This document shows, piece by piece, positions 39,320 through 64,000 of a DNA stretch of 64,000 bases. The position numbers and the translations under genes are program-made. Position 1 is the first letter of the stretch, and each line of letters begins with the position of its first letter. Under the pieces are notes generated by a model, which made no database searches, was not told the DNA's origin, and saw nothing but the letters and a program-made list of their open reading frames with translations. This DNA is from Luteibacter jiangsuensis (lineage in GTDB: Bacteria; Pseudomonadota; Gammaproteobacteria; Xanthomonadales; Rhodanobacteraceae), in assembly GCF_030812295.1 (NCBI RefSeq), contig NZ_JAUSSK010000001.1, positions 744,001 to 808,000 on the forward strand. Reading direction: 5' to 3'.

Positions 39320-41602
39320 CTAGGGCGCCCCGTTCAGTGGCCGCAGCGACTCGAACTTCCGCTGGTACTCGTCCGTCACCTGCTTGGCTTCCTCCCCGTT
39401 GCTGATCACCCTGGGCGTGATCAGCACGATCAGCTCCGTACGGTTGCGCCCGCGGTTGGTGGAACCGAACAAGCGACCGAAAACGGGGATACGGTTCAGC
39501 CCGGGGATGCCCGTGTCCGTGGTGCTGTCGTCTTCCTTGATCAGGCCGCCGAGCAACACCGTCTGGCCGCTCTGCACGGCCACCTGGGTGGCGACCTCGC
39601 GTTGCTGGATCGGGAAGTTGCCCGTGGTCGTATCTTTCGCGCCCGCCGCGCTGACCACCTGGCTCACGTTGAGGTACACCAGCCCGCCGGGATTCACACG
39701 CGGGCGCACGTTGAGGATCACGCCGGTGTCCTTGTATTCCACCTGGCCGATCGTGTTGTCCGTATTGGCGTTGGTGTTGACGAAGGTCTGCGTGATCGGG
39801 ATCTGGTCGCCGACCTGGATGTGCGCCTTCTGGTTGTTCAGCACCACCAATGACGGCGCGGAGAGGATCTTGGTGTTGCCGCTGGTCTCCATCGCGCGCA
39901 GCGCGACGGAGAGGTTGTTGTTGACGAAGGAGTAGAAGAAGCTGTCGGTGCTGGGGTTGTAGACGTTGCCGCCGTTGCCCAGCGCCCACTGCTGTTTGTT
40001 GCCGGGCTGTCCCACCGAACCGTTGGTGCCGCCGACCAGGCCTTCCAGGTACCACTGCACGCCGAACTGGAAGTTGCCCGTCAGCGTTACCTCGAGGATG
40101 CGCGTCTCGATCTGCACCTGCAAAGGGACGCTGTCCAGCCGCTTGATCGCCTGCTCGATCTCCGTCCACTGCGACGGCCGGCAGCGCACCATCACCTGGT
40201 TGTTCGCATCCACCGAGGTGATGCGCACGCCTTCGTCCGTGGTCGTCGACGCATGGCGGCCGCCGCCATTGTCGCCGGCATCGGTGGAGTCTCCACCACC
40301 GAGACCGCCAAGGCCACCGCCGGTTGCCGTGCCGGTGGTTCCGCCGGTGGAAGCGTTGAAACCGGTCGACGTCGACAAGCCCGACGACGTGCCCGATGAC
40401 GACGAAGTGCCCGCGTTGCCGAACGCGCCCGTGGTGCTGCCGAGGCCCGAGCCGCCACGATTGCCGAGGTCGCTGTCGCCGCCGAGGGTGCCGGAACTGA
40501 GCCCCGGCCCGACCTTGCCGCCGCGATCGCTCGATTTTCCTCCGCCCGAGCCGCCGCCATAGATGTCGGACAGGTAGTCGGCCATGTCCGCCGCCTGCAC
40601 GTTACGCACGTCATAGACATACAGCTGCGGCTCGTTGCCGCCGCCGCGATCGATGCGCTCGATCCACGTTTTCACTTCGTCGAGGTAACGCGGTTGCGGG
40701 CTGATCACCACGAGGGAATTCGTCCGCTCGATGGGAATGAAGCGCAGCAGGCCCGCCATGGGCGTGTTGCCCTTCTCACCGAAAAGGCTGTCGAGCTGCG
40801 GCGTCAGTTCCTTCACCTGGGCACGCTGCAAGGCGAACACGCCCACCGACATGCCGCGCAGCCAATCCACGTCGAAGGTCTGCACCGTGCGCTGGTAGTT
40901 CTCCAGTTCGGTCGGCGTGCCGGCCATCACCAGCACGTTGCGCGTGGGGTCGGCCAGCAAGGTGGCATCGGGTCGCGCGAAGGGCTTGATCAGTTTCTGC
41001 ATCTCGGTGGCCGAGATGAAACGCAGCGGAAACAGGCGCGCCTGCAGGCCGCCCGGCGGTGCCTTCGCGCCCATGCTCGGCACGAGGTTGCCCGCCACGG
41101 CGTCCTTCGACGGCATGACCACGTAGCGGTCGCCGTTCCGCACCAGTGCGTTCCCGGTCCACGACAGCAAGGTCTCGAGGATGGGAAGCGCCTGGTCGGT
41201 GGTGACCGGCTGCGAGGTCGAAAAAGAAATGTTGCCTTGCACACCCGGCACGATCGAATAGTTCTCGTGCAGGAGGTCGCCCACGATGGCCTTCACCACC
41301 GACTCGACCGGCTGGTTCTCGAAATTGAAGGTCACCGTGCCCGCACCCGCCGTCACCGGCTTCGGCTTGGGCAGGCCCACCGCTTTCACGAATTCACCCG
41401 TGCCCGTGGTGATGTCGGGCTGCGTGACCACGGGGATTTGCGGATTGGACGTGCCCACCGTCAACGGCTTGGGCACCGGCTTCTCCGTGCCGGCCAGCGC
41501 TTCCCGCTGGAGCGATCCATCGTCGCGTGGCTGCGGCAGCGTCGAGCATCCGGCAAGCGCTACCGCCAGCGCCGTGGCGCCGATCGTAAGAAAGCGTGTC
41601 AT
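39320..41602 (-). CDS. gspD: Type II secretion system secretin GspD
   Basis: The 760-aa outer-membrane secretin has a lipoprotein signal (ALAVALAGCSTLPQP), N0-N3 ring domains (from about residue 88, VTFNFENQPVESVVKAIVGD, on through FIPIERTNSLVVISPQPRYL), and the secretin core (VQIETRILEVTLTGNFQFGV to RTELIVLITPRVI). A Gly/Ser/Thr-rich low-complexity insert of about 100 residues sits in the N3 domain (about 350-455). The lipobox suggests outer-membrane targeting without a separate GspS pilotin. It follows gspK by 90 bp, with no gspL, gspM or gspN between. Confidence 0.95.
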   Translation of the reverse strand: MTRFLTIGATALAVALAGCSTLPQPRDDGSLQREALAGTEKPVPKPLTVGTSNPQIPVVTQPDITTGTGEFVKAVGLPKPKPVTAGAGTVTFNFENQPVESVVKAIVGDLLHENYSIVPGVQGNISFSTSQPVTTDQALPILETLLSWTGNALVRNGDRYVVMPSKDAVAGNLVPSMGAKAPPGGLQARLFPLRFISATEMQKLIKPFARPDATLLADPTRNVLVMAGTPTELENYQRTVQTFDVDWLRGMSVGVFALQRAQVKELTPQLDSLFGEKGNTPMAGLLRFIPIERTNSLVVISPQPRYLDEVKTWIERIDRGGGNEPQLYVYDVRNVQAADMADYLSDIYGGGSGGGKSSDRGGKVGPGLSSGTLGGDSDLGNRGGSGLGSTTGAFGNAGTSSSSGTSSGLSTSTGFNASTGGTTGTATGGGLGGLGGGDSTDAGDNGGGRHASTTTDEGVRITSVDANNQVMVRCRPSQWTEIEQAIKRLDSVPLQVQIETRILEVTLTGNFQFGVQWYLEGLVGGTNGSVGQPGNKQQWALGNGGNVYNPSTDSFFYSFVNNNLSVALRAMETSGNTKILSAPSLVVLNNQKAHIQVGDQIPITQTFVNTNANTDNTIGQVEYKDTGVILNVRPRVNPGGLVYLNVSQVVSAAGAKDTTTGNFPIQQREVATQVAVQSGQTVLLGGLIKEDDSTTDTGIPGLNRIPVFGRLFGSTNRGRNRTELIVLITPRVISNGEEAKQVTDEYQRKFESLRPLNGAP

Positions 41603-41692
41603 GCAAGAACCATCATGGTTATCGAGGCCTGCGAGAGTGGCGGGTGCGTGTTGCCGTGCCGTGACGTGGCAGGAGTATGCCGCAGGAATCCC

Positions 41693-42562
41693 CTACAGGT
41701 TCTTTTCGGACGAACGCTCCGCCCAACGCACGATGCGATATGGCCGCGGGTTCCCGGGTTCGCTATGCATGATGAGGGTGACATCGAGTGTCAGAGTCGG
41801 CCCTTCGGCCAATCGCGCCCGCGATGTGATACTGACGATCCCGCTGAAACCCTTCGCCGCGTTGCCCGAACCCGTCCCGGGAAGCATCGGCAACGCGGAA
41901 GCACCCGGCGGTAACGCTCTCACCTGATCGACGTAAGATCTTGCGGCCTCCGGCCCCGCGCCCGTCACCGCGGCGACGACCACCGGGGCGGCGTGGGCGA
42001 GATTCGGTGGGTCGGCGGTCCACAACGTCAGGAACGGAACGATCCTCTCGACGGCATCGACGCTGATCCCAGGCACCCGGTAGAGTTCGTCGATGCTGCT
42101 GAACCCGCCTTTCGCAAGCAACAACGACGCTTGCATATGTCCTCGCGTTCCCCAACGGGCGATGGCCGCTTGAAACCTCGGTACCAGCGACGCATCCACG
42201 CCCGAAGCCGCCAGTAGCCGTCCGATGAGTTCAGGCGAAGCCGTGTTGAGGTTGACCTTGCCGTCCTCGTCGCCGATATCCAGTTGCACGTCGGCACGAC
42301 CCAACCGAAAGCCATAAGCACGACCGTCCGCGATCCAGCGCTGCGTGTCTTCCCGCGCGTTCAACATGAACACGGCGTGTTCGATGCCCGCCTCCGCCGC
42401 ATAGAACGCTTCCAGCCGCAGGGACTGTCCACGCGCCTGGGTGCTCTCCACCCGGGCACTCGTCGCCAGTGCCCCGAGGGTGATCGCCGCCAACGTGCAA
42501 CCCCAAAGGACCACCAGCAAGGCAACACCGCGTTGCTTCATGGTCCAGGGAAAGGTTTTCAT
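41693..42562 (-). CDS. gspK: Type II secretion pseudopilin GspK
   Basis: The 289-aa protein has a prepilin leader ending KQRG before VALLVVLWGCTLAAITLG, lacking the usual Glu5 just as GspK proteins do, and the expanded GspK globular domain with LNTASPELIGRLLAAS and FSSIDELYRVPGISVDAVER (helix-hairpin-helix-like). GspK caps the pseudopilus with GspI and GspJ. ATG 42562 overlaps the gspJ stop as ATGA; ATG 42541 is possible. Confidence 0.93.
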   Translation of the reverse strand: MKTFPWTMKQRGVALLVVLWGCTLAAITLGALATSARVESTQARGQSLRLEAFYAAEAGIEHAVFMLNAREDTQRWIADGRAYGFRLGRADVQLDIGDEDGKVNLNTASPELIGRLLAASGVDASLVPRFQAAIARWGTRGHMQASLLLAKGGFSSIDELYRVPGISVDAVERIVPFLTLWTADPPNLAHAAPVVVAAVTGAGPEAARSYVDQVRALPPGASALPMLPGTGSGNAAKGFSGIVSITSRARLAEGPTLTLDVTLIMHSEPGNPRPYRIVRWAERSSEKNL

Positions 42563-43221
42563 CGCGTCCCATCCATCGACGTCAATCGCGCCATGGCTTC
42601 GCGTGCATCGACCGCGGCGGGGTCCATCCGCAAGGGGACGGCGATCGTCGGCCACTTCACGCCGCCGGCCAGGGTCAGTTCGAGGCCGATCATGGAAGGC
42701 AGGCGGTCGCCATACGGCCATGTGTCCCGCCATGGCACCGGATTGCCCTCGTCATCGACGCCGCTATAGACGAAGCGCCCGGACGACACATGATCGACCA
42801 GGACTTCCGGCTGCGAAGGGACGACCTGTGCGGCATCACGCGATGCCAACGGTGCGAACTCGGCCTGTAACTTCAAGTCGCGATCGCGTCCGACCAATGC
42901 CAGGCGCTGGAGCTGAAGACCGCTCTTCGCCAGATAGCCCGGCCCCGGAGCAACGAAGGTGACCTCACCGGCCGTCCCACGGACCACGATGGGGTGCTTG
43001 TCGGCACGCAACGCCCAAGGGTACGCCAAGGCGGTGGACAACGCCCGTCGCACATACATCTGCGCGGCCCTGACCTGGTCGAGCCGTTCGGTCACCGCCA
43101 TGCCGGCACGCGTGGATTGCGTCATCGTCTGCAGCGCCGCCGTCACGCCCAGCAGCAGCAACGCCAAGAGGGCGAGCGCCGCGAGTGTTTCCATGAGACT
43201 GAAACCCACCTGACGCTTCAC
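42559..43221 (-). CDS. gspJ: Type II secretion pseudopilin GspJ
   Basis: The 220-aa protein begins VKRQVGFSLMETLAALALLA: the prepilin peptidase site is G before FSLME, with the conserved Glu5, followed by the N-terminal hydrophobic helix and a larger C-terminal domain (TGRF-like VSSGRFVYSGVDDEG and GLELTLAGGVKWP). The GTG start at 43221 overlaps the gspI stop as GTGA. GspJ is part of the I-J-K tip complex that engages substrate. Confidence 0.9.
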   Translation of the reverse strand: MKRQVGFSLMETLAALALLALLLLGVTAALQTMTQSTRAGMAVTERLDQVRAAQMYVRRALSTALAYPWALRADKHPIVVRGTAGEVTFVAPGPGYLAKSGLQLQRLALVGRDRDLKLQAEFAPLASRDAAQVVPSQPEVLVDHVSSGRFVYSGVDDEGNPVPWRDTWPYGDRLPSMIGLELTLAGGVKWPTIAVPLRMDPAAVDAREAMARLTSMDGTR

Positions 43222-43652
43222 GAGTCCCCCGAGGCATACACGGAAACCTTGGGCACGCGCGGCTTCTCGGACACGGTGCGCAGGGTCTCGAAACGGGAGG
43301 ACAGGGTTCTCCCGCCCACATCCCACTCGACCGTCAATTCGATCCTGTACAGATGCATCGGAGCCAGGGTGGCGACGGTTGCCGTATCCGCCGGCGTGCT
43401 CACTTTCATCGTCCAGCGATAGGTATCGTCGAACCGCCCCGTATGCACGCCCTCCGACGGAAAGTCGGCGACGAAGGTGCGATCGAGCAGGCCATTGGCC
43501 CAGAGCGATGCCTGAGTGTAATCCGCCGCGCGTGCGTTCAGGGCGACGGACGAGCCAGTGGCGCGCATGAGCGCACCGAAACACAAGGCCAGCAGGACCA
43601 AAGCCGCCAGCGTCTCGAGCAGGCTGAAACCTTCGCTTCGCGCACCGCGCAT
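43218..43652 (-). CDS. gspI: Type II secretion pseudopilin GspI
   Basis: The 144-aa minor pseudopilin has a short basic leader (MRGARSEG), cleavage before FSLLETLAALVLLALCFGAL, and a small C-terminal domain with YRIELTVEWDVGGRTLSSRF. ATG 43652 is preceded by AAGGAGGGG at ideal spacing, so it is preferred over the in-frame ATG at 43673. It begins the tightly overlapping I-J-K set. There is no gspG or gspH upstream; the next upstream gene encodes a YVTN propeller. Confidence 0.9.
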   Translation of the reverse strand: MRGARSEGFSLLETLAALVLLALCFGALMRATGSSVALNARAADYTQASLWANGLLDRTFVADFPSEGVHTGRFDDTYRWTMKVSTPADTATVATLAPMHLYRIELTVEWDVGGRTLSSRFETLRTVSEKPRVPKVSVYASGDS

Positions 43653-43704
43653 GCGTCCCCTCCTTAGTGCCACCGAGCATGCGATCGGAAGGTTTCGGAC
43701 CGAT

Positions 43705-43732: not shown

Positions 43733-43747
43733 TATCGCCTTGCTACA

Positions 43748-44755
43748 TCACCACTGCGGCTGGGTAGCCACCGCGGCGGGAACGCTACCGACGTTCACCG
43801 TGGCGATCACCTTGTTGGTGAACGGGTTGATGACGGAAACCGTATTGGATCCGGCGTTGGCCACGTACACGCGACCGGTACTGTCGCTCGCCGCCACCGA
43901 CTGCGGCGTATTGCCCACCGGCACCGTCGCTATCACGCTCTTGTTGAGCGGGTTGATCACGGAAACGGTATTGTCGACCGAATTGGATACGTACACCGGG
44001 ATACCGATGGGGCTCGTGGCAACGCCCTCGGCGCCATTGCCAGCCGTCAGCGTGGCGGTCACCTTGTTGGTGAACGCATCGATCACGGACACGTTGTTCG
44101 AACCCGCGTTGGTCACATACACGCGGGCACCCAAGGGGCCGACTCCCAAGCCGGACGGCGTGTTTCCCACCGGCACCGTCGCGATCACCTCGTTCGTACG
44201 CGAGTTGATCACCGACACGGTGTTGTCACCGGTATTTCCCGTGTACACGCGGGCACCATTGGGGCTGACCGCGATGCTGAACGGTGCATTCCCGACCGGA
44301 ACCGTGGCGACGACGGTGTTGGTCGCCGTATCGATCACGGAAACGGTGTTCTCGTTCGCATTGGCCACGTACACGTCGGACCCATCCGGGCTGACCGCCA
44401 CGGCCACGGGCGTGTTCTGCACCGCCACCATGGCGGTCACGGCGTTCGTGGCCGCGTCGATCACCGATACGGTGTTGTCGAGGGCATTGGCTACATACAC
44501 GCCGGAACCATTGGGGCTGACGGCGATGCCGAGCGGATTGGCGCCCACCGGCACCGTCGCGGTCACGGTATTGGTCACCGTATCGATCACGGAAACGGTG
44601 TTGTCGATTTCGTTCGCCACGTAGGCGTTCTTGTTATGGGCCGACGCAGGCAATGCCATTCCCGCCATCAGCAAGGGAATGGCGCAGCGGGCCGCGGGGG
44701 CGAGCCAGCGCTTCGTGGCCTGGCGGTTCTTGATCGTCGATCGTCCGGTCGTCAT
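43748..44755 (-). CDS. Exported seven-bladed YVTN beta-propeller protein
   Basis: From ATG 44755 (GAGG 7 nt upstream) the 335-aa protein has a long twin-basic signal region ending PASAH, then seven consecutive repeats of exactly 42 residues with the core VYVANxxDNTVSVIDxxTN and VPVGNTP. Seven blades close a full propeller. YVTN propellers occur in surface and binding proteins of many bacteria. It sits between the PstS-like gene and gspIJK, so it is a candidate substrate or partner of this secretion system, which is inference from position. Confidence 0.88.
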   Translation of the reverse strand: MTTGRSTIKNRQATKRWLAPAARCAIPLLMAGMALPASAHNKNAYVANEIDNTVSVIDTVTNTVTATVPVGANPLGIAVSPNGSGVYVANALDNTVSVIDAATNAVTAMVAVQNTPVAVAVSPDGSDVYVANANENTVSVIDTATNTVVATVPVGNAPFSIAVSPNGARVYTGNTGDNTVSVINSRTNEVIATVPVGNTPSGLGVGPLGARVYVTNAGSNNVSVIDAFTNKVTATLTAGNGAEGVATSPIGIPVYVSNSVDNTVSVINPLNKSVIATVPVGNTPQSVAASDSTGRVYVANAGSNTVSVINPFTNKVIATVNVGSVPAAVATQPQW

Positions 44756-44789
44756 GGGATACCTCGATAATGGATTTATGGGCGCCATA

Positions 44790-44847: not shown

Positions 44848-46185
44848 TCAGATGTTGACGCAGGAATCGACCTTGGCCTGGGTCAACGTAGCCGACGACA
44901 GGAACGCATAGCCCGTGTTCGCACCGATGGTGGTCACGCCGTCCGTGGTGTGATCGGCGTACGCCGAACCGACGAGGCCGCGCACGGCGCCGACGTCGGT
45001 CGAGGTGTTGCCCTTGTTGTTGGCGATCAGGTACGACACGGCCATGATCGGATAACGCGAGGTGATGTTGGCGTAGCCGGCCGGGTCGACCAGGAGCATG
45101 CAACCGGTCTGGCCGAACGGGGTAAGCGCCGCCGTCACCGGACGACCGGTGGTGGCGTTCACGCCGTTGAGGACGCGGTCCGAACTGACCAGGACGGCCA
45201 GCGAAGCCGGGAAGTCGGCATACGGGTCCTTGCCACCGACCGTGGCGTACTTGACGTGCGGCGCGGTGGAAGCGGCGGCCTTCAGGTTGGCCGATTCGGC
45301 GTAGCCGATCGTACCGTCGGAGCTCTCCACGGCGCTGACGACGGCCGGATTGCCGCTGCCGCCCACCCATCCCGCCGGAATGGTCGGCTGGTACTGGCTG
45401 ATCGCCGTGGTGAACGACTGGTCGGCAATGAAGTGCTGCGAGGCCGTGCCCGCGCAGGCGGCGGCCATGTGGTTGGCCAGCGAGAAGCTGGTACCGCTAC
45501 CGTCGGAGCGGAACGCGACCTTGATCGTCGACGTGTCGCTCGCGTTGCCCGTCAGCGCCGACCACTGCGTGATCGAACCGTTGAACACGCCGCAGACCTG
45601 CGCGGAGGTGAGGTTCAGCGGGGTCGACAGGCTGTCCTTGCGATAGATCACCGCGATCGAACCCGCCACCGCCGGGAACTGCACCGGCTCGCCGTACTGC
45701 GTCTTCTTGCCACCCGTGACGTCGAACCAGTTGTACTCGGTGGCGGACATCGGAGCATCGCTACCCGCGAAGTGCGGATTCACCAGGATGCTGGAAGGCG
45801 CACCGAAACCAATGGTCGTGCCATCGCAAGCACCGATGGCCGTGAGGTGGTTCGTACCGTCGGAGTTGTCGAAGACCTTCTTGCCGTTACCGCTGCCGGT
45901 CTGGCAGTAGGACACTTTGTTGCCGGTACGTGCGGCCCAGGCGCCAAACAGCGAGGTGCTGCTGACAGCGGCGACGCCCGAGGTCGGGAACGCGGTGTTG
46001 GCCGACTGCTTAAGAGCGGGATTGAGGAAATTGAAGCCGACGTAACCACCGGCCGGCAGTGTCGCACCGCCGCCGAAGGTGTCCGTGCTCATCGCCGTGC
46101 CGGCGGCCGAAAGGCCGAGGACCAGCATGACGGCGCCCGTAACAAGCTTGGTGCGGGTGTTCCCCTTAGCATTACGCTTGAACAT
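44848..46185 (-). CDS. PstS/DING-like periplasmic or secreted phosphate-binding protein
   Basis: From ATG 46185 (AGGGG 8 nt upstream) the 445-aa protein has a signal peptide ending SAAGTAMS, then a PBP-like domain. FGGGATLPAGGY near the N-terminus, VAFRSDGSGTSFSLANHM (the phosphate-loop region with R, S, D, G, S, G, T) and SSDGTIGYAESANLK resemble PstS-family binding proteins. Four or five cysteines are present, unusual for periplasmic PstS but common in exported relatives. No pstCAB genes follow, so it is not an ordinary transporter component. DING-type proteins are linked to T2SS export in pseudomonads. Confidence 0.82.
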   Translation of the reverse strand: MFKRNAKGNTRTKLVTGAVMLVLGLSAAGTAMSTDTFGGGATLPAGGYVGFNFLNPALKQSANTAFPTSGVAAVSSTSLFGAWAARTGNKVSYCQTGSGNGKKVFDNSDGTNHLTAIGACDGTTIGFGAPSSILVNPHFAGSDAPMSATEYNWFDVTGGKKTQYGEPVQFPAVAGSIAVIYRKDSLSTPLNLTSAQVCGVFNGSITQWSALTGNASDTSTIKVAFRSDGSGTSFSLANHMAAACAGTASQHFIADQSFTTAISQYQPTIPAGWVGGSGNPAVVSAVESSDGTIGYAESANLKAAASTAPHVKYATVGGKDPYADFPASLAVLVSSDRVLNGVNATTGRPVTAALTPFGQTGCMLLVDPAGYANITSRYPIMAVSYLIANNKGNTSTDVGAVRGLVGSAYADHTTDGVTTIGANTGYAFLSSATLTQAKVDSCVNI

Positions 46186-58300: not shown

Positions 58301-58461
58301 AACCATCCGGGGCTGAACGCAGGCGGCGTCGCCGCATGCGCGGCGCCACCGAACAACGCCAGCGCGATGAACTGGCACATCGCTCGCCGGCGCAAGGCCG
58401 GGCGTGGCTTGACCGAGCTCGGGTGACGGGTGTCGCTGGGGGTCTTCGTACGAACGATCAT
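46396..58461 (-). CDS. Giant haemagglutinin-family exoprotein (TPS domain, 4021 aa)
   Basis: The largest gene in the window. An extended signal region (about 1-44, ending GGAAHAA) is followed by a Gln/Ala-rich linker, then a TPS/haemagglutination-activity domain at about 140-340 (MTWETFNVGRHTTVHFDQ, QIKAEGTVYLLNRNGMIFGG and THSLIASSLDL; NRNG replaces the usual NPNG). More than 3000 residues of right-handed beta-helix-type repeats follow. The C-terminus (GKGAKTNSEIPP, GAGIATLQTVPDAPEGSVYL, TVDAGDAGIRVSGNLVIAAA) resembles the DUF3739-type end of this family. No TpsB gene is in the window. The ATG overlaps the upstream stop as ATGA. It is probably a surface adhesin or scaffold. Confidence 0.92.
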   Translation of the reverse strand: MIVRTKTPSDTRHPSSVKPRPALRRRAMCQFIALALFGGAAHAATPPAFSPGWFATKQPGATQPATPSQGGGAAGNGGNVFTPGNVMLQQRVQQSIANLDAAAQAVAAQMSAQKSAQAAAQALASNVPDGLGKGGLQVDSHAGTDPSLWQNANAPTQSVASGQTTVQIKQNAPKAIMTWETFNVGRHTTVHFDQTGGTRTDGSNQWIALNRVNDPSGKPSEILGQIKAEGTVYLLNRNGMIFGGGAQVDTHSLIASSLDLFSTDVSKSNAFFLKSGIGATQDNENILGDQGSVTGFLVSAAVYGRTEDPRGVIAIENGASLNATKDGFVIVAAPAIQQGGRVTADDGQAIFAAVPGLAAQASSATGALAVAPVIGLLSEPLQGVTNTGLVQARRGSIQWFGNTMEQDGVLVTSTSLSHPGSVSFVGLNGASGPLVFGSRSVTTVLPEKDGETTTSSSSADDAFVTSRVDVGLKAVMRSGALMEVPAGHVTFSRDAYIDDGAIIDVSGLANVTLPMSALLVTIPRIGLNELANSPLLRNSFLYTAKDVTVDTSRSGTRADGLDWVGSPVLNVAGYVSNVPRDIQQLMINAGTIAFQNNAVIRTGAQLRLEGGFINYLPGYVQTPRLQGANGLIYDIAAADPDVQYAGFAGVYDSVHARWGVTETFVSSPLLANMKRWDPGFIKGGDAGTLSFGLSADNGQAYQFIIDGDVSAHVYAGREQVANGSEPLAGTLDIRSRDLASMSENANIGQSVSINYLIEDRRQPIQAFVPDFDEDSKLPARDGDPNDPDNPSYWLRLSTAMIDNAGFRRLKLSTPGTVLLKEGSTLHLADGGEVDIAGTSVDIQGTIVTHGGSITLGSRGQAGIKADNLPTFITVGSGGRLDTSGLWVNDTGRPADEIEGRAFIDGGSVTLSAWKGGELSTDITPDITVERGSVIDVSGGGYVGVDGRLAMDGDLPAGRGGDVTVATHTDDGLNTYGITAAPADLLGGTISLDGTLVGGGFSGGGTLTLHAPRIQVGGAPQDDDGAWTLYLDPAFFRGLGFSGYNLVADTDVVVAPGTSLDVRPAYMVADRSALLTLGSRTSLLQSGGDGAVGIGEVGAYDNYLHRRDGDGISLQAGLYLKWQAPNPGAIRKYADYTGSVVIGDGARVDVGAGDTIALDGVGKVVVDGTLAARGGDIRLHNLGDGAHVVSEGRGVWLGADSVIDASGVSLLDPTAPALPGQGATPAAQRTGVVLGGGDIEMQSDAYVVAARGAAVDFSGANDTFDLPADGRRNGVASTVYQATPVWSDGGSFNLEAAKGLFFDASIDGHGGAGAARGGRFSLAARYPAEFAPGQNVPLFIQQSGWFAPVDVDPLALKDPGSPDDGNLRFAIDRLEGAGLDDVLIGRSFVDHDTTVKPASVVFAGDVALQASRSIQVQASTLTTAGADARAVPSAATVVTDGGNVTFSAPYVSLLGMETLSRPSAAAGDGSLTVNADFIDIGGRVSLSGIGNASFNSSGDVRFINPLSGTEAGWLYSTGDLDFTGTRVYPATDYHFLVDATNPSAKTTITFHQASSTDGTTPLSAGGVLAVGADTIEQQGTLWVPSGSLALGTDDPAATLAALGLDASVPLGVTGQVHLAPGSVTSVSLDGAVVPYGSTVDGKDWHYDVPNALADRLLTAPPEKSISIAGDNVAVDGGARVDLSGGGHVQASEWVPGTGGSRDVLSQYQTDFSQSTQGTQVPLYGDGRAVYAIVPGYHAPLSARDLALENGTGAGPAVGQGVYLSGMPGLPDGVYTLLPARYATLPGAFRVVQNTSVSDPVIGRAATAPDGTVVASGYFTDTLTGARDARSSSFLVQSAKVWGQYSEYSLTSADTFFADAAARAGDVAPQLGADAGRLTLAATSSLTLGATLDAAPATGGRGSQVDIAGDAIQVVGGAGVARDGYLHVDADDLSQLGAGSLLIGGKRSRESDGDRVAVIASDVLLSNDAAHALQGSEVILAATDNVTLDAGSSLRANASTDAPSPALLMGNLAADGSAATSGDGALVRVSGTDAAPIIRRNVTGLDGAAGAPGGNLTIGDGASLVSGQSISMDATGLTSIADKATLGAPSIDVTAGRIALSGRDPSTQDQAGRLLIGPHILAQLAGTDMTVLRGRSGIDLVGDVALGVSHALTLSTPEIVSDGGQAVLGAESIVLENDTGTLPGTVGAGGGHLRIDTGDLHTGHGDLSLGGLADIDVHASSGMFASGTGTLNTGTADFAAITPLVSVDNGAAAHWMGQGTFQLTGPAQGDVGDAEAAAGTLEIEAAAIDVGTRVAARGGKLSLHATTGDIHVNDGAVIDLSGLSLPFNDTTVNVPGGSLAMRADQGDIRVDTGADIDLRGGIKGGNGGRLDLRAESGVVALSGSLRGAAAAGYLGATMSIDSAGAFDLGSLAGAMAAGGVDGGVSVHTREGDLALAAGQTLRAHLVDLTADGGSIGIGGTIDASGTFGGSIDLFGARGVDIDGVLDTHASAQGRHGGDIQIGTSGTGNGSLNGQYGYQNVDAADAGHIRIGAGARIEQGGDTANGRLYLRAPLLSDGDTPVDIAGSASFAHTRDTTLEAYAIWDTRDAAVDPTKHFDGLVDPSGWFRVDPATGKAVLVDGVFTDSNGGTVTGPDPSDFAQVMDFLSRYTFTPAAINTDHATFYGYAGGDEAQGAGTLMGFVQSPGFTFESRLSAAPGLHVRPGIELRAGDDNGNAGTIDVLTPWNLGAGKRDANGDLDLVYRYQGQAPVLSLRAAGDVNVYASVTDGFFQDGNAGGGAGATPDMADWAAASAAWTTVLDLGNGIDGTPNAFDGSPLATPPVELTSGDPVAIAEYYGQYVAYATYLSSAIPGFDPYHPADVILTGLGLGYGILVPVTNPPAPPAPPTNMNSYVGYLAAYKAYLPQAITASDYLGSLGVPDNFQGLVAPPTTLDPINTSAPVDNSPSPHAVGTNPLPLLSASLTGGSSSSYRFVAGADLGSSDPLATMAGAVASLHLGGHTEYHDPITGKVLAAPTLVRTGTGDIDIVAASDVRWDDAKAPAAVYTAGEAADGTQTDTGASILRPSTNGNLTDSATPELVLSGAVNPVNAGRIGLHAGGDIVGLQDTVDTDGSLTGTAGASTAQYWWPWMQTTNSETRSSINFGAFSQGVMSAGGDVDVSAGGDIRQLSVSLPTTWTIATAGDGSRSLQTHGGGDLAVHAGGDILSGSYFVAKGQGSIQADGRIGADFSVNYTAPDGSRSTMPVSTLIALQDSQLDVQAGGSVSLGGIFNPSWLDSAAVNELAPAHHADGQSYSGSSRIDVSAYGGDLTYGDLTAPLQLMVAGISSLNSSTADTAGDILPATVNLIAANGSLDLKASGELFPSTDGNLGLLAKDSIRVDLPVTGLGWRYSWGLIDAPLSSMASPLNLASLVDSSTSAAAQVRTNGYLGVQLLSSPETQSYIHAAQPWHADDTQPVRMYALEGDIVNGSGGGFAGMLLTTSKETRVQAGRDIVDLAYMGQQLQASDISTIAAGRDIYDTPLTTADVDVSLSPARVFPVLVQAGPGYLYVKAGRDIGRLASQTEFFGLPSFVQDRYINRLQLPGSSSNVTGIDAVGNIYNPNLTRDGASIVVSYGVANGTDQAAFIARYVDPSAKKPGGLDDESRSLVSFVEGYDAGLPTSGGYTVEQAWQRFQQLPDEAKAIFVQQTLFRILKQVGKDYGDEGSTFAGMYSRGYDALNTLFPASLGYTANGMEGGTNGAANTISTGDLDIRGSTIQTQRGGDISIVAPGGQALLGSASAPPVVVGPNGKVLAGPNTQGILTLQQGDISIFTDRSTLLAQSRIFTEQGGDVVMWSSNGDINAGKGAKTNSEIPPVRYLCTVDAWCLQDPSGQVAGAGIATLQTVPDAPEGSVYLMAPRGTVDAGDAGIRVSGNLVIAAAHVANADNVQVKGDSVGLPVVQSVNVGALNAASSAASAATKAAEDVARQQQADSRDRLPSIISVQVIGANSGASVSPVGGNGYDPDSPVQVVRKGAGDGLTDSERSRLR

Positions 58462-58934
58462 GAGAAATCACCGGTCATCGTCGCCACTTCATCATTGAGT
58501 TCAGGCAGCGCGGCGAGCTCTTTCAGCTCTTCGTCGCTGAGTTCGCGCAGCACCGACCGGATCGCCAGGCGGCGTCCGTCGTGCAGCCACGCGTTGAGCA
58601 CGCTGGCGATCGCACGGATCGTCGGCAGCGCGGTGTCGTCCAGTTGCGGCTTGCGGTGGCGCAATCGATCCTCCACCGCGTAACGCACGCGCGATCCGAG
58701 GAACGCCGAGGATTCGCGCAACAGCTTTTCAAGCGCTTCGCGAGAGCAGCGGTCCATCAACACGTCCGCCGCCCTGCCCTGCCGGGCCGCATAGAGCTGC
58801 CGCAGCATTTCTGCGAGCGCGTGCATGCAGTTCATGCCACATGCCCGCGCATCCACCTCGGCGCGGGCACGAGACAGACGCGGCCGCGGCGCGCGATATT
58901 CAGGAAGCGACGAAAGCTCATGATCGGGATACAT
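58458..58934 (-). CDS. Unrecognised 158-aa protein coupled to the giant exoprotein
   Basis: A soluble, helix-rich protein without signal peptide, starting MYPDHELSSLPEYRAPRPRL; GAGG lies 7 nt before the ATG. Central segment MNCMHALAEMLRQLYAARQG and the C-terminal LSDEELKELAALPELNDEVA look alpha-helical, and three cysteines occur. Its TGA overlaps the exoprotein ATG, so the two are made together. No family is recognised. A cytoplasmic chaperone or regulator for the exoprotein is a reasonable guess from position only. Confidence 0.7.
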   Translation of the reverse strand: MYPDHELSSLPEYRAPRPRLSRARAEVDARACGMNCMHALAEMLRQLYAARQGRAADVLMDRCSREALEKLLRESSAFLGSRVRYAVEDRLRHRKPQLDDTALPTIRAIASVLNAWLHDGRRLAIRSVLRELSDEELKELAALPELNDEVATMTGDFS

Positions 58935-58955
58935 GGACTGCCTCGCGATGCGGTG

Positions 58956-59582
58956 TCATTGCGTCGCCGACACCTGGCCGGCACGGGGATCGAAACGCTG
59001 CTCGTAGAGCCTGTCGCCGAACGACTGTGCCGCCGTCTCGAGCTTCACCCGTGACTTCGCCGCGAACGGCTGCCGGGAACCGACGATGTCGCCCATGCCG
59101 ATGTTCTCGTAGGCCGCGATCACTTCCTGGCCCACACGGTACATCTGCACGTTACGGGCGGTGCAGGCATCCACCTGACCCTTTGCCGTATCGAGTTCCC
59201 TGGCGAGCCGCGCGCGCTCGGCTTCCGCCGTGCGCAGCGCGACCGCGGACGCGTCCATGTCTGCCTTGCCTCGTTGCAGGCTGGCCTCCGCCGCCTCGCG
59301 ACGCTGCCGCTCCGCGGCCAATGCGCGGCTCGCTTCCGGCGACACGGCCGACGAAGACTTCGCCCCCGCGCGCGCCGTCTCGGCTTCCTTCTTCGCGTCG
59401 TCGCGCTCCTTCTCCAGTGCGGCCTTCTCGGCGGCCCACTGCGATTGCTGCGCCTGGAGCTCCTGCAATTGCGTGCGCGTCTCGCGCAGCTGGTCGCGCA
59501 TCCGGCTTTCCAGGCTGGCGGTCTGTGCGAATGCCTGTGGCAGCACGGCGAACAGCGCGATGGCGATGAGGGTGCGTTTCAT
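58956..59582 (-). CDS. Periplasmic coiled-coil protein of the exoprotein cluster
   Basis: The 208-aa protein has a signal peptide (MKRTLIAIALFAVLPQAFAQ), a long coiled coil (about 25-140, for example LQELQAQQSQWAAEKAALEK) and a compact C-terminal segment (TARNVQMYRVGQEVIAAYEN and IGSRQ-like VGSRQPFAAKSRVKLE). AAGGAGGCGAC gives a strong ribosome-binding site. It lies 9 bp after the porin stop. The shape suits a periplasmic spacer or adaptor between inner- and outer-membrane parts, which is inference. Confidence 0.75.
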   Translation of the reverse strand: MKRTLIAIALFAVLPQAFAQTASLESRMRDQLRETRTQLQELQAQQSQWAAEKAALEKERDDAKKEAETARAGAKSSSAVSPEASRALAAERQRREAAEASLQRGKADMDASAVALRTAEAERARLARELDTAKGQVDACTARNVQMYRVGQEVIAAYENIGMGDIVGSRQPFAAKSRVKLETAAQSFGDRLYEQRFDPRAGQVSATQ

Positions 59583-59591
59583 GTCGCCTCC

Positions 59592-61298
59592 TTAGAACCG
59601 TGCGTTCATATCGAGCTGGAAGACGTCGATCGACAGTGGCGGACCGAAGACTTCCTTCGCGTTGAAGTAACGCAAGCTCAGCCAGGAATACTTCGACATG
59701 CCGTAGCTTCCGGTAAGCACGAAGCCTTTCGCGTTCGTGCCACCCAAATGGAAATCGGCATCGGCCAGGCCATCGAGCGTCGCGTCCGGTTGCAGGTACT
59801 TGTAAGCGAGGCTGACGTTCCAGTCCCTGGCGGCCGCTGGGATCACATCGCCCAGGGTGGCGCGGACCATCCAGCCCACCGGCCCGCTCTTGTAGGAACT
59901 CTCGCTGAAATCGCCTGCACCGAAATTGTTGACCAGGCGGTTCAGTCCCACGCTGGGGCGGAATGCATCGGCTCGGTGATAAGCCATGTTGCGGATGTAG
60001 TCCGCCTCCAGGCGCAGCGGCGTAGCGGCGACCTTCATATCCAGCTGCGTGTTCACGTCGGCCACGTGGTAGTCGTGCACCAGGCCGACGAACTGGGGCT
60101 GCGCATAGTTGCTGGGCGAGTTCGGATCCGGCACGATGTCGCGGATAAGGAACAGCGAATTGCCCTTCTGCATGAAGGCCGACCGGGTGGCATCGGTATC
60201 GCAGAAGTTCACGCCGAGATAGATCGAGCACGGCGACGACAGTTCACCGCGCATGTGGTCGAAGCGGTAATAGGCGAGCGCCAGCTTCCACTGCGTATCC
60301 TCGCTGAACCGCCACGTGCCACCCAGCTGCGCGCCCGTCATCCATTTGTCGCGGCTCGGGCTCTTGATGCCCTGCTGCGAGGGAAAGTCGTCCGCCTGAT
60401 ACTCGATCGGGAACATGCCCACATTGGCGAACGCACCTATTTCCTCGGTCACCGGTACGTTGAACTTACCGACGATGCCGTCGAAATTCAGGTCGTTGGA
60501 GTAAACCAGGTCCGTGCTCATGAAGGGGTTCGGCATACGTCCGCCGATGACCTTCGCCCAATCGGTTGGATTCCAGGCCAGCCAGGCCTGGTCGAGCCAG
60601 ATATCCTTCTTGGACAGGCCGCCCCCGAGGGTTCCGGTGGTGGAAACCGGGTTGTTGTCGTCACCCGTGGCGATGCGGATGCCAGCGGTCACGTTCTCGC
60701 CCAGGTCCACATTGACGCCGAGGCGTGCGCGGATGCGCAACGAGTTGGTTCGGTTCTCGCGTGTGTTGAGCAGCGGCGGCGGATTGGTGCCGTTGAGGTC
60801 GTAGGGACCGGTACGGTTCAACCTCGCGAAGTCCACGACCGGATAGGCATTGCCCTTGTCGTAGTAGTGAAACTCGTCGCGCACGCGCATGTCGCCGGAC
60901 CAGCCAATCCGGTCGAGCCATTCCGGGAGCTTGCCGGGCTCGGCCCAATGCTCCGTCCTGGCCTGCGCGACCACCTCCTGGCGCAGTTCGTCCTTGATCT
61001 GGTTACGCACCACTTCCGGCACGTAGGTGACACGCACCTGCCCTGGCGTGGCCGGCGCGGCATTGGCCGTACCCGCCAGCTTCTGCGCCTGGGCGGCTTC
61101 GGCGTTCGCCTGCGCGATGAGACCGTCCGCATCCGACTGCGTCAGCACACCGCGCTTCACCAGCAGGCGGACGAGGTTGATCGTGGCGTTGTCCGAGGGC
61201 GCGCTTTGCGCATGCGCCGAGCCTGCGAAGATCGCCAGGCCGATGGCGGCGGCCAAGATGGCGCGCGCGGGGCGATGGCGGGCCTTTCCGATGATCAT
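59592..61298 (-). CDS. Putative outer-membrane porin of the exoprotein cluster
   Basis: From ATG 61298 (GGAG 7 nt upstream) the 568-aa protein has a signal peptide (ends AGSAHAQ), a short helical periplasmic N-terminal part (LLVKRGVLTQSDADGLIAQA, seen in the 'putative porin' family), a linker, and a beta-barrel with alternating aromatic strands and terminal Phe (FQLDMNARF). An in-frame ATG at 61331 overlaps the tonB-like stop as ATGA but has no ribosome-binding site. It could be a solute porin energised or gated by the adjacent Ton-like genes. Confidence 0.85.
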   Translation of the reverse strand: MIIGKARHRPARAILAAAIGLAIFAGSAHAQSAPSDNATINLVRLLVKRGVLTQSDADGLIAQANAEAAQAQKLAGTANAAPATPGQVRVTYVPEVVRNQIKDELRQEVVAQARTEHWAEPGKLPEWLDRIGWSGDMRVRDEFHYYDKGNAYPVVDFARLNRTGPYDLNGTNPPPLLNTRENRTNSLRIRARLGVNVDLGENVTAGIRIATGDDNNPVSTTGTLGGGLSKKDIWLDQAWLAWNPTDWAKVIGGRMPNPFMSTDLVYSNDLNFDGIVGKFNVPVTEEIGAFANVGMFPIEYQADDFPSQQGIKSPSRDKWMTGAQLGGTWRFSEDTQWKLALAYYRFDHMRGELSSPCSIYLGVNFCDTDATRSAFMQKGNSLFLIRDIVPDPNSPSNYAQPQFVGLVHDYHVADVNTQLDMKVAATPLRLEADYIRNMAYHRADAFRPSVGLNRLVNNFGAGDFSESSYKSGPVGWMVRATLGDVIPAAARDWNVSLAYKYLQPDATLDGLADADFHLGGTNAKGFVLTGSYGMSKYSWLSLRYFNAKEVFGPPLSIDVFQLDMNARF

Positions 61299-61327
61299 GC
61301 GAACTCTCCGGGTGGTATTGACGGTGC

Positions 61328-62011
61328 TCATGCGGGACGCTTCCCGCGGATGGCCACGCGCAAGGGGAAATGCAGGGACGAGGGTGGCGCCACGTCGATA
61401 CGCGGCATCGCGCGCAAGGCGTCGAGCAAGGCCTCGTCCGTTTTCGTGTTGCCGCTGGAACCGACCAGTTCGGCGCGGGTGAGGCGTCCACCGGCATCGA
61501 GCCAGATGTCGGCGCGCACGTCGAACACGAGGCGGTTGACCCGTTCGTCGCGCTGCACCGCCTGCTGGATCGCATAACCCAGGTATTGGTCGTAGCTGCC
61601 GGTGCCCGTGCCGGTGCCGCCACCGGACCCGACCATACCGCCGCCGTCGCCCGCACCGATGTTGAAGGCGTCGGTGCCGGCCTGGGCATCGCCATTGATC
61701 GTCACGTTCTTGGCGACGTCATCGCTCGGCTTGGGTGCGTCCACCGGCTTCTCCGGCTGATCCTGCGGCTTGTCGTCGACGGGCTTCATCTCGTCTTCGA
61801 GCTTCTTCGGTTCCGGCGGTTTTTCCTTCGGCGGCGGAGGCGGCGGGGGCAAGGGCGTGATCGTGGCGATGCGCGGCGCCTCGCGCCGCACGCCGACGCT
61901 GCTGGACGCGAAATGCCAGACCAGCGCGCCGAGCAGAAGGACGGCCACCACGCCCACCGCGGGTCCGATCCAGCGGCGGCGTTGGCGACGATGTGACGGG
62001 TACGGGGTCAC
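61328..62011 (-). CDS. TonB-like energy transducer of the exoprotein cluster
   Basis: The 227-aa protein has one N-terminal membrane helix (WIGPAVGVVAVLLLGALVWHF), a Pro/Lys/Glu-rich periplasmic spacer (LPPPPPPPKEKPPEPKKLED), a Gly-rich hinge, and a TonB-type C-terminal domain (FDVRADIWLDAGGRLTRAEL to DALRAMPRI). It starts at GTG 62011 with GAGGGGA upstream, 4 bp after exbD, and is followed by the porin gene. It should transmit proton-motive energy from the adjacent ExbB/ExbD pair to an outer-membrane partner. Confidence 0.88.
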   Translation of the reverse strand: MTPYPSHRRQRRRWIGPAVGVVAVLLLGALVWHFASSSVGVRREAPRIATITPLPPPPPPPKEKPPEPKKLEDEMKPVDDKPQDQPEKPVDAPKPSDDVAKNVTINGDAQAGTDAFNIGAGDGGGMVGSGGGTGTGTGSYDQYLGYAIQQAVQRDERVNRLVFDVRADIWLDAGGRLTRAELVGSSGNTKTDEALLDALRAMPRIDVAPPSSLHFPLRVAIRGKRPA

Positions 62012-62015
62012 GCGC

Positions 62016-62423
62016 TCATCCCCTCGGCGACTTGCCGGTGACCAAGCCGACCTGCGGCAGGTCCACGCGACGCAGCAGATCGAGGATGTCCATCACCTTC
62101 TGGTACTGGACCGTGGCATCGCCCTTCACCACCACCGGGAAATCCGGCGTGATCGCCTTCAGCGAACGCAGGCGCTGCTCCAGTTCGGCGAGCGTCACCG
62201 GATAGGCATCGAGGAAGATCTGGCCCGTGTCGGAAATGGTGATGGCCTTGGTCTGCGGCTTGGCCATGCTCACCGCCGCGCTGGCCTTGGGCAGGTTCAC
62301 CTTGATGCCCTGCACCGACGCGGTGGTCATGATGATGAAGATGACGAGCAACACGTACGCCAGGTCGAGCATCGGCGTGATGTTGATGTCGTCGTACGGC
62401 TTATCGTCGTCTTGCGCGCGCAT
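62016..62423 (-). CDS. exbD: ExbD-like protein of the exoprotein cluster
   Basis: The 135-aa protein has the ExbD layout: short N-terminus (MRAQDDDKPYDDINITPMLD), a single membrane helix with the conserved Asp (LDLAYVLLVIFIIMTTASVQ) and a periplasmic domain (GDATVQYQKVMDILDLLRRV). It lies 10 bp after the DUF2341-LamG-ExbB gene and 4 bp before the tonB-like gene. It is the second ExbD in the window and is clearly different from the one at 3897-4325. Confidence 0.92.
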   Translation of the reverse strand: MRAQDDDKPYDDINITPMLDLAYVLLVIFIIMTTASVQGIKVNLPKASAAVSMAKPQTKAITISDTGQIFLDAYPVTLAELEQRLRSLKAITPDFPVVVKGDATVQYQKVMDILDLLRRVDLPQVGLVTGKSPRG

Positions 62424-62433
62424 GATCCGATCC

Positions 62434-64000
62434 TCAGGCCGCGACGGCCGACGGTTGGTTGACGCGCTGCTGTTCGGCGAGGCGCGTCACGAACTCGTCC
62501 ACGAACACCTGCATGTTCGCGGTGACGTTCTTGTTGCGGATCAGCAGATAGTTGTAGCCGAACAGTGCCGGGATCGCGACGAACAGACCGGCCACCGTGG
62601 CGAGCAGCGCCGCGGCGATACCCGGGGCGATGGCGTTGACGTTGACGTCGCCCGCCGCGGCGATCGCCGCGAAGGTGATCATCACGCCGACCACGGTGCC
62701 GAGCAGGCCAAGGAAGGGGCCGCCGGAGATCGCGATGGTAAGCAACACCATCGACCGGGACAGGGCCTGGTTCTCGCGCACCAGGACCGAATCCATGGTG
62801 GCGCGGATCGCCTCGATGGACTCCGAAGCGATGTGGTCCTGGCCGTCTTCATCGCGGCGGTTCCACACTTCGGCGGCGCCGACCTTGTAGAGACGATAGA
62901 GCGAGGCGTCCTGCAACCTCGACGCGGTGGCATCGCGCGACAGCGCGAGGATGTTACGGCCTTGCTGGCGGAAGGCGTCGAGGAAATCCTCGTTGGCGCG
63001 GGTCACCTTGTTGACGTACGCCGCACGCTGCCACATGACCACCCAGGAGATCGCTGCCATGACGAGCAGGATGCCGATCACCACCCAGGCATCGGCAGTC
63101 ACGGACTTGACGATGATGCCGAAGTAGCCGAAGCCCACGCCGGACTGTTTCTCGTCGGCGCCGTAAGCGAGCAACTTGGATTCCGCGCCCTGGGTCTGCG
63201 CATCGACCGCGATGACCACCGCCGGGCGGGCGATACGCGACAGGCGCACTTCGTCCATCAGGCCCGTGAATGGCAGGAAGGATTCGGCCTGGCCCGCGAT
63301 GTCGCCACCGAGGGTGGCCTGGCTGGTCATCGCGGGGAGCTTCGTCTCCAGCTTCGCGTAAGGCTTGCCGTCGACGTACAGTTCGATATCGCCGCCCGTG
63401 GCGGTGACGGCGACATGCGCCCATGTGGCGGCCTTGAGCGGTTCGCCGGCGGCGCTGGTGGTGTCGTTCACCTGGACGAAGGGCACACCGTTGTCGAGCC
63501 CGACCAGCAGCTTCTGCTCGCCCTGGCGGCGCGCGTAGACCAACGTACGCCCCGCAGGCAACGCGTCGGGCTTGATCCATGCGCTGAACGTGAAGCTGCC
63601 GCCCTCGGCGACATTCATCGAGACACTGCCCGGCAGGGTGACGATCTTCGAGCCGTCGAAACGCGCGGCCTTGCCGATGATGCCGTCGGCGGCGAGGATG
63701 TCGTTGCCCACGGCGTTGTTGGCGTAAGCGGTGGCGTCCTGTGGCGGTGTACCCGAGGCTTCCTCGAAGTGATAGACGGCGGCGTAGTCGGCGTCGAACA
63801 CCGCGCCGGCCTTCTCGGCGCCCTGCGCCTTGGGATTGCCGTAGTACATCCACACCTGCTGCTGGCTGTCCGCGCCGAGCTGCGGCACGTCCACCCAGAC
63901 CAGGGCCACGCCCAGCACCGGGTCGAAGCTCTCGATCTGGTAGTTCAGCGGGGTCTTGTCGTCGGCTGCGACGAAGCGGACGTCGGCACCCGTCTCGGAC
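62434..64000 (-). CDS. DUF2341-LamG-ExbB fusion protein (N-terminus beyond window edge)
   Basis: The visible part (about 521 residues) begins in a DUF2341-like domain (VRFVAADDKTPLNYQIESFD), continues through a LamG/concanavalin-like jelly roll (VYHFEEASGTPPQDATAYAN, GSFTFSAWIKPDALPAGRTL, ATWAHVAVTATGGDIELYVD, FTGLMDEVRLSRIARPA), a membrane helix (AWVVIGILLVMAAISWVVMW), a cytoplasmic loop and the MotA/TolQ/ExbB domain (GGPFLGLLGTVVGVMITFAA and GIAAALLATVAGLFVAIPAL). The result is an ExbB proton channel carrying a large periplasmic glycan-binding-like head. The frame is open to the right edge. It heads the exbD-tonB-porin run. Confidence 0.93.
   Translation of the reverse strand, partial: SETGADVRFVAADDKTPLNYQIESFDPVLGVALVWVDVPQLGADSQQQVWMYYGNPKAQGAEKAGAVFDADYAAVYHFEEASGTPPQDATAYANNAVGNDILAADGIIGKAARFDGSKIVTLPGSVSMNVAEGGSFTFSAWIKPDALPAGRTLVYARRQGEQKLLVGLDNGVPFVQVNDTTSAAGEPLKAATWAHVAVTATGGDIELYVDGKPYAKLETKLPAMTSQATLGGDIAGQAESFLPFTGLMDEVRLSRIARPAVVIAVDAQTQGAESKLLAYGADEKQSGVGFGYFGIIVKSVTADAWVVIGILLVMAAISWVVMWQRAAYVNKVTRANEDFLDAFRQQGRNILALSRDATASRLQDASLYRLYKVGAAEVWNRRDEDGQDHIASESIEAIRATMDSVLVRENQALSRSMVLLTIAISGGPFLGLLGTVVGVMITFAAIAAAGDVNVNAIAPGIAAALLATVAGLFVAIPALFGYNYLLIRNKNVTANMQVFVDEFVTRLAEQQRVNQPSAVAA

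Follow-up and report, generated by a model that had tools for sequence, protein, structure and literature searches.

The PUMA3/sigma-VreI locus of Pseudomonas aeruginosa (PA0674-PA0701) is described as combining the regulatory genes vreA-vreI-vreR, the hxc type II secretion system (T2SS), pdtA and pdtB, the genes exbB2, exbD2 and tonB4, the putative porin gene PA0696, and PA0697 (PMC2729926, PMC4971064, PMC7035377); its Ton system has been termed "still uncharacterized" in the literature. Homologues in P. fluorescens, P. entomophila, B. vietnamiensis, R. palustris and Janthinobacterium were reported in the 2009 paper to accompany homologues of two-partner secretion (TPS) proteins, ExbBD and PA0696. 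In the psp locus of SBW25, a PstS-like gene lies between an 11-gene Hxc T2SS cluster and the gene for a haemagglutinin of 4083 amino acids (aa), and Psp secretion is reported to be mainly Hxc-dependent (PMC2225411). The locus considered here runs out of one end of a window of 64,000 nucleotides (positions 744001-808000 of contig C1) in the 4.32-Mb genome of Luteibacter jiangsuensis; judged by domains and gene order rather than by alignment of the PAO1 proteins, it appears to be the Luteibacter form of this known, poorly understood Pseudomonas locus type. What the comparison adds to the published PUMA3 descriptions is a core order and co-occurrence across genomes, an exchangeable cassette, and the recognition of gspD as a resident of the site. 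In the window, the locus and its flank comprise the following genes:

62434..64000, minus strand: ExbB-type proton channel with a signal peptide and a periplasmic domain of DUF2341 and LamG-like type (Pfam); the longest frame extends to 64293, past the window end
62016..62423, minus strand: ExbD (Pfam ExbD, E 3e-28)
61328..62011, minus strand: TonB-like protein (TonB_2 and tonB_Cterm slightly under cut-off; syntenic TonB in relatives)
59592..61331, minus strand: Porin_5 protein (Pfam, E 2e-176), predicted to form a barrel with about 16 strands, to carry periplasmic helices at its N-terminus and to lack a plug domain
58956..59582, minus strand: exported coiled-coil hairpin protein (cc), positional counterpart of PA0697 (hidden Markov model, HMM, synteny; no Pfam match)
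58458..58934, minus strand: 158-aa protein, lineage-specific (9/150 genomes of the order) and at most a facultative part
46396..58461, minus strand: TpsA exoprotein, 4021 aa, with a TPS domain at 144-354 and DUF3739 at 3822-3932 (Pfam)
44848..46185, minus strand: PstS-like protein of phosphate-binding fold (Pfam PBP_like_2), signal peptide by eye, start by reading
43748..44788, minus strand: YVTN beta-propeller protein (TIGR02276 repeats), signal peptide by eye
43218..43673, minus strand: accessory minor pseudopilin GspI (50% to the main GspI; N_methyl motif slightly under cut-off)
42559..43221, minus strand: accessory minor pseudopilin GspJ (PRK08808 of NCBIfam, E 1e-25, under cut-off; 42% to the main GspJ)
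41693..42562, minus strand: accessory minor pseudopilin GspK (NF037980, E 1e-13, under cut-off; 35% to the main GspK)
39320..41602, minus strand: GspD secretin (TIGR02517, above cut-off), resident gene of the insertion site
37559..39259, minus strand: GGDEF-EAL enzyme (NCBIfam), flanking resident gene outside the system

The ExbB fusion carries the Pfam domains MotA_ExbB, DUF2341 and Laminin_G_3, and its nearest named relatives, among the best 80 of at least 567, are Luteibacter records at 87% and 84%; DUF2341 with ExbB is treated in the literature as domains of unknown function. The TonB-like protein scores 21.9 bits with TonB_2 against a cut-off of 22, the nearest solved chains to the PstS-like protein are 5j1d and 5jk4, and no identity could be assigned to the 158-aa protein. 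The accessory GspI, GspJ and GspK give weak matches below the curated cut-offs; comparison with the genome's main T2SS makes their homology clear. All genes named in an earlier note, which was made from the window alone, are present on the minus strand, in the order given there and with intact frames, and the short ATGA/GTGA-type overlaps that it pointed out are real, with 4-bp overlaps at tonB/porin, p158/tpsA, gspI/gspJ and gspJ/gspK (the starts of gspJ and gspK by reading). The extent that it gave to the series was less accurate: the series does not start at exbB, which is cut by the window end and preceded upstream by tpsB, vreR, vreI, vreA and a second gspD, and the c-di-GMP enzyme that it included lies outside the range 39320..64000. 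Between tpsA and the probable start of pstS lie about 210 bp, so that a single operon for the whole series is not established.

Outward from position 64000, the contig continues with the rest of exbB, tpsB, a FecR-type anti-sigma factor, an ECF sigma factor, an STN-domain protein and the second gspD. The tpsB gene overlaps the start of exbB and ends 247 bp past the window edge, and with it the notion of a locus lacking a TPS transporter was rejected; the encoded protein has POTRA and ShlB domains, and its best solved relatives are CdiB and FhaC. The VreI-like protein (Sigma70_r2/r4) adjoins the VreR-like protein (FecR and DUF4880), and the VreA-like protein of 238 aa has an STN domain (E 3e-7), no receptor barrel, and a C-terminus that is TonB/TolA-like by eye and by the cross-matching of the vreA and tonB HMMs. 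The locus thus shares with PUMA3 a VreA (STN with a TolA/TonB-like part), VreI and VreR set, in which the sigma and anti-sigma genes are adjacent, a TpsA/TpsB pair (PdtA/PdtB), ExbB, ExbD, TonB and porin in order, a protein in the PA0697 position, and T2SS genes. It differs in having only gspIJK and the resident gspD where P. aeruginosa has the hxc set, in having the PstS-like and YVTN genes where PAO1 has lapA, and in that no counterpart of phdA or PA0698-PA0701 was recognised among the Luteibacter frames, which were not searched by sequence for them. A complete adjacent Hxc-type T2SS, absent here, is a feature of Pseudomonas and is not stated for all published homologues. With SBW25 the locus shares a PstS-like protein near T2SS genes and a giant exoprotein or haemagglutinin, whereas the 11-gene T2SS cluster there corresponds to tip subunits only in the present locus. 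The earlier note knew of no described system with this combination; that view does not hold, since PUMA3/sigma-VreI and psp-hxc together contain nearly all of it and the combination is described piece by piece across the two literatures. The PUMA3 frame was missed because the TpsB and VreAIR-like genes lie 0.2-4.2 kb outside the window edge.

The conserved core was defined by alignment of 12 ExbB fusions (alignment A1), a scan of a contig collection, and examination of the loci of the best 80 of at least 567 relatives. These 80 loci were found through ExbB, whose presence in them is by construction, and at least three of them (L065, L067, L133) appear to be the same contigs as in genomes G135, G039 and G169; the 80 come from Gamma-, Beta- and Alphaproteobacteria, from Verrucomicrobiota and from one Anaeromyxobacter bin. 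Gene order was counted in the 59 loci of at least 21 kb, the other 21 being shorter and excluded. Searched with HMMs from the window genes, tpsB stands directly before the ExbB fusion in 57/59 of these loci, and exbD (59/59), tonB (59/59), the porin gene (59/59) and cc (58/59) follow it in order; all of these are in order around the fusion in 56 of the 59, the exceptions being L133, L137 and L139. Flanks reached at most 10 kb, so that the numbers of loci with tpsA (33), vreA (29, from an HMM that cross-matches with that of tonB), vreI (34), vreR (39), one or more T2SS genes (22, of which two, L075 and L092, had their matches checked with Pfam) and a PstS-like gene (3) anywhere in the 59 are lower bounds. 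Motor, TpsB and porin thus keep their synteny over many genera, which the earlier note had named as a check for a single system; the 158-aa gene, which it had counted in, stands outside the core, with its 9/150 genomes of the order falling in 3 of 64 genera. In L103, L111 and L125 (Bradyrhizobium, Rhodopseudomonas), VreA-VreI-VreR-like sets lie on both sides of the motor block, a pattern that fits the repeated PUMA3 clusters published for R. palustris. Two contigs of one Magnetospirillum fulvum strain (L114, L115) carry a near-identical motor-tpsA locus in which gene lengths differ slightly; the locus may be duplicated, or the assembly may be responsible.

Co-occurrence across genomes gives strong comparative support, of a purely genomic kind, to a tie between the Ton-like motor and the giant exoprotein such as the earlier note had proposed. 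Among 398 Pseudomonadota genomes, the ExbB fusion (E 1e-60), DUF3739 and Porin_5 (E 1e-60) were each found in 14, and these are the identical 14 genomes, from 12 of 213 genera (Fisher 4e-26 for the two-way table, as a guide only). In a draw of 274 genomes of the class, with a single protein as the ExbB query at E 1e-60, 15 genomes had both the fusion and DUF3739, 1 had the fusion only, 4 had DUF3739 only and 254 had neither (Fisher 3e-20, again a guide only). For the four DUF3739-only genomes, an alignment search recovered the fusion in one frame in G218 and its parts on two contigs in G249, and generic ExbB only in G347 (64% complete) and in G370, where DUF3739 is itself under cut-off. Full-length Porin_5 was present in 15/15 further ExbB-positive genomes of the class and in 5/7 others, the two without it being G090, discussed below, and G110, in which the cluster was not otherwise looked for. 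The exoprotein is on a different contig from the fusion in G032, G537 and G672, which may be due to assembly. Two further TpsB genes occur elsewhere in the L. jiangsuensis genome; the 19-kb stretches around them gave no tblastn match to ExbB, ExbD, porin, cc or TpsA. In the open-access literature, mostly at the level of titles and abstract openings, no statement of a co-occurrence of DUF3739, Porin_5 and the ExbB fusion was found. As a side observation, G298, a relative within the class, carries on contig C7 (13456-15207) an ExbB fusion match with one in-frame TAA, perhaps a broken copy; a second, open fusion is on C3.

The two ends of the cluster are marked by copies of gspD (39320-41602 in the window and L011:8788-11154 beyond it), direct repeats whose starts lie about 29 kb from each other; they share 86% identity at the protein level and about 90% at the DNA level. 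The second flank is a 6-phosphogluconate dehydrogenase gene opposite the GGDEF-EAL gene. In G090, a genome of the same genus, a single gspD sits directly between these two flanking genes and the cluster is absent between them; neither Porin_5 nor the 158-aa gene was found in that genome, in which the ExbB fusion was not searched for. The gspD gene is present at both ends here (G000) and in G135, and upstream only in G095 and G130. G090 carries both gspD and the GGDEF-EAL gene at the empty site, which marks the two as resident genes there, and the reading of gspIJK-D as one unit, which the earlier note had adopted, was rejected on the same ground. Gain and loss of the cluster are indistinguishable, because recombination between the gspD repeats would leave a G090-like arrangement; such direct repeats could permit deletion or amplification of the whole 29-kb cluster by homologous recombination.

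Within this frame, one part of the locus behaves differently in the four Luteibacter-group loci that were compared gene by gene (this genome, G095, G130, G135). Between this genome and the other three, identity is 73-95% for VreR, VreI, TpsB, ExbB, ExbD, TonB, porin, cc, the 158-aa protein, GspD and the GGDEF-EAL enzyme, and 60-65% for VreA; TpsA, GspI, GspJ and GspK are 54-64% identical to those of G095, 33-51% to those of G130 and G135, and 71-82% identical between G130 and G135. The PstS-like protein follows with 57% to G095, 43% to G130 and 42% to G135, the last value coming from a separate comparison as the pairwise alignment covered 22 residues only. The YVTN gene occurs only here and in G095 (cassette class A), where it lies between gspK and the GGDEF-EAL gene, and had no match in the stretches of G130, G135, G115 and G039. 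For comparison, the main T2SS shows identities of 95-97% for GspE (in G095, G130 and G135), 75-85% for GspI, GspJ and GspK, and 69-70% for GspD. In a quartet test, from which pstS and YVTN were left out, the cassette (tpsA, gspI, gspJ, gspK) supports ((G000,G095),(G130,G135)) by 1837 log units, while the frame of 11 genes prefers another tree (approximately unbiased test, AU, of the cassette tree 0.046) and the main gspIJKD reject the cassette tree (AU 0.003). These comparisons lend moderate support to an exchange of two old cassette types, tpsA-pstS-gspIJK, within a better conserved frame; faster change of the cassette within one shared tree could also account for the pattern.

There is no support for the accessory tip genes as an exporter of their own. 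The main T2SS (gspE to gspK and gspD) is on contig C4, 0/7 T2SSE matches of the genome are on the locus contig, and no window frame matched the main GspE, GspF, GspG or GspH models, only I, J, K and D being found; the window genes alone thus lack the combination of ATPase, platform, major pseudopilin and secretin that makes a T2SS, and the GspIJK-D exporter of the earlier note is not supported as a self-sufficient one. Its idea that these genes serve the companion proteins fares better for gspIJK, which change class with tpsA and pstS. Substrate recognition is described as depending critically on the pseudopilus tip, XcpUVWX or HIJK (PMC6211770), for which reason tip genes travelling with pstS are best read as its cartridge. 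T2SS subunits encoded away from the main locus are known from XphA/XqhA of P. aeruginosa, which form a functional hybrid T2SS (PMC6567927); these are GspC/GspD, whereas the Luteibacter genes are GspI/J/K and are linked to candidate cargo. In G115, a gspE fragment directly follows pstS at a contig end and gspHIJK...D begin another contig, no accessory gspIJK being present in the stretches read and no other main-type GspE found at E 1e-60; this suggests that a whole T2SS may follow pstS there across an assembly gap, much as Hxc adjoins psp in SBW25. Two observations elsewhere in the genome concern the same machinery or its surroundings: beside the main T2SS (L013:11088-14651, contig C4) lies a 1187-aa frame whose VAIGANSWALG repeats give it, by eye, the look of a YadA-type trimeric autotransporter, and near an ExeA-like AAA protein (by eye) on contig C2 (L014:9028-10845) lies a lone GspE-like ATPase, 43% identical to the main GspE, with a counterpart at 42-43% in 7/7 genomes searched.

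The envelope components have features of their own. ExbB T533 and T566, invariant in 12/12 rows of alignment A1, and the membrane aspartate of ExbD (MLDLAYVLLVIFII) are residues that we take to be the pore threonines and the motor aspartate; as read from the sequence, the motor residues are intact in both proteins. The AlphaFold2 model of the porin (predicted local distance difference test, pLDDT, 79.6; predicted template-modelling score, pTM, 0.70) shows 16 long strands, with helices near the N-terminus, partly of low confidence, between residues 23 and 126; Y103 and P105 of a Y-x-P motif just before helix 106-126 are invariant in 45 alignment rows, which were used instead of a pattern search (52/86 counted) too strict to catch clear HVTYVPE forms. 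Among proteins of known structure the porin had no sequence relative, and its Foldseek neighbours in the PDB are MOMP, OmpM1, OprB, AlgE and other porins, with a query-normalised template-modelling (TM) score of at most 0.42 and no TonB-dependent receptor in 50 rows; with about 16 strands, no plug and Porin_5 as its only family, the protein lacks the plug in a 22-strand barrel of a TonB-dependent transporter. OmpM porins of Veillonella, outer-membrane attachment porins that have a periplasmic stalk, are among the best fold matches (TM 0.7 by target, 0.42 by query); the Luteibacter porin differs in having no SLH domain by Pfam and the conserved Y-x-P motif instead. The cc model (pLDDT 82, pTM 0.49) consists of helices 15-76 and 82-159 and has no PDB match. 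With its TPS-domain exoprotein and POTRA/ShlB-type TpsB, the locus resembles two-partner secretion of type Vb (FhaB/FhaC, CdiA/CdiB), to which Luteibacter-type loci add constant motor, porin and coiled-coil partners. FhaC has an H1 plug helix before its POTRA domains; the POTRA of the locus TpsB begins at residue 38, about 6 residues past the signal peptide (by eye), which leaves no room for such a helix, and those of the other two TpsB proteins of the genome begin at 81 and 64. Bradyrhizobium-type TpsB relatives have a longer Ala/Pro-rich stretch before POTRA, so the short segment may not be a class-wide trait.

On balance, it is probable that this secretion locus is of PUMA3/sigma-VreI and phosphate-starvation type, with a Ton motor serving the display of the giant exoprotein and a separate cargo cassette re-tipping a T2SS core. 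The VreA-VreI-VreR-like regulators would switch the locus on, possibly at phosphate limitation; TGTCA half-sites before vreA number 2-4 per 300 bp against 0.2-0.4 expected in 5/5 genomes, a post hoc count. TpsB, going by its family, would export the 4021-aa DUF3739 TpsA to the surface, and ExbB-ExbD-TonB, porin and cc may form one obligate trans-envelope system with TpsB/TpsA. The proton-driven motor could act through TonB on the periplasmic part of the porin or on the TpsB/TpsA (DUF3739) end, a mechanical step by which the exoprotein at the surface would be completed, fixed in place or moved. The exchangeable cassette of tpsA, the PstS-like gene, sometimes YVTN, and gspI-J-K would supply T2SS tip subunits, and these may join the chromosomal T2SS core and lead to secretion of the PstS-like phosphate scavenger. 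A bolder version is put forward only tentatively: that DUF3739 two-partner secretion is driven by the proton motive force, its display, anchoring or movement needing a dedicated ExbB(DUF2341)-ExbD-TonB motor via a plug-less porin with a periplasmic extension and the hairpin protein, and that strains exchange T2SS tip subunits together with the cargo, as cartridges that re-aim a core common to them.

The same genes could instead serve uptake, the exoprotein harvesting a ligand such as organic phosphate and passing it to the porin for TonB-driven import. HxuA, described as freeing haem for the TonB-dependent HxuC in Haemophilus, offers a precedent in HxuABC, and the phosphate-starvation setting of the relatives and the presence of a porin in the locus agree with it; the plug-less porin model and the lack of a TonB-dependent receptor among its 50 PDB rows make it rather unlikely. 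The Ton complex might also serve the VreA-type protein, with its STN and TonB/TolA-like parts, and report the export state of the exoprotein to the sigma factor, as the VreA-like gene upstream and the TonB-dependent receptor usual in cell-surface signalling systems would lead one to consider. Such a role is improbable when vreA and vreR, counted as lower bounds within 10-kb flanks, reach 29/59 and 39/59 loci and exbD and porin 59/59. Several promoters reported for the P. aeruginosa locus and the 210-bp gap before pstS would suit co-regulated neighbours without a joint machine, an explanation that appears less probable still, as three families in identical sets of 14/398 genomes amount to an obligate co-presence that co-regulation alone does not explain.

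For the accessory gspIJK, the alternative is that they are functionless, decaying remnants of a duplicated T2SS. They have diverged faster than the main copies, have no E, F, G or H beside them, and were not seen in the G115 stretches read, where the gspE fragment directly adjoins pstS; yet all three frames are open in 4/4 Luteibacter loci read that carry gspIJK, the window copies keep prepilin motifs, and the two classes change together with tpsA and pstS. Decay is a possibility to be taken seriously, if a doubtful one.

Several points count against motor-served display with a re-tipping cassette. The PUMA3 match is one of domain and order only, PA0697 being equated with cc by position only, and type V secretion is described in reviews as powered by no energy source. 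Since the porin is plug-less and its fold neighbours are ordinary porins, contact between TonB and the porin is a guess. At the thresholds used, 5/20 positive genomes of the class draw had one partner only; the genomes are moreover related and the two draws share at least G000 and G255, so that the P values are too small. The best tree of the main gspEFGH is the cassette tree (AU 0.739), 0/5 single frame genes reject that tree (AU 0.10-0.67) and vreR prefers it; cassette exchange consequently rests on the concatenated frame, barely, and on the main gspIJKD. A search of 80 kb for pho boxes gave 33, fewer than the 44-56 of four shuffled sequences and so not above background, and the TGTCA half-sites before pstS are strong only here, with 4 against 1-2 in four other genomes.

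Elsewhere in the window, positions 12001-16000 show strong opposite AT skews, +0.25 followed by -0.23; the skewed stretch covers a lysine/alanine-rich, histone H1-like frame with AAKKTATKK repeats (e.g., 14612-15616, minus strand).

A giant exoprotein family that occurs only with its own Ton-like motor, in 14/14 of the positive genomes among 398, would, if the motor is needed, break the rule that type V secretion uses no energy source; alternatively, it may point to a new task for Ton motors, which would anchor a surface adhesin, move it or read it out. The joint change of class of T2SS tip genes and their putative cargo would amount to a natural experiment on T2SS specificity, and the regularity with which motor and exoprotein occur together in the sampled genomes makes motor-assisted display a testable case.

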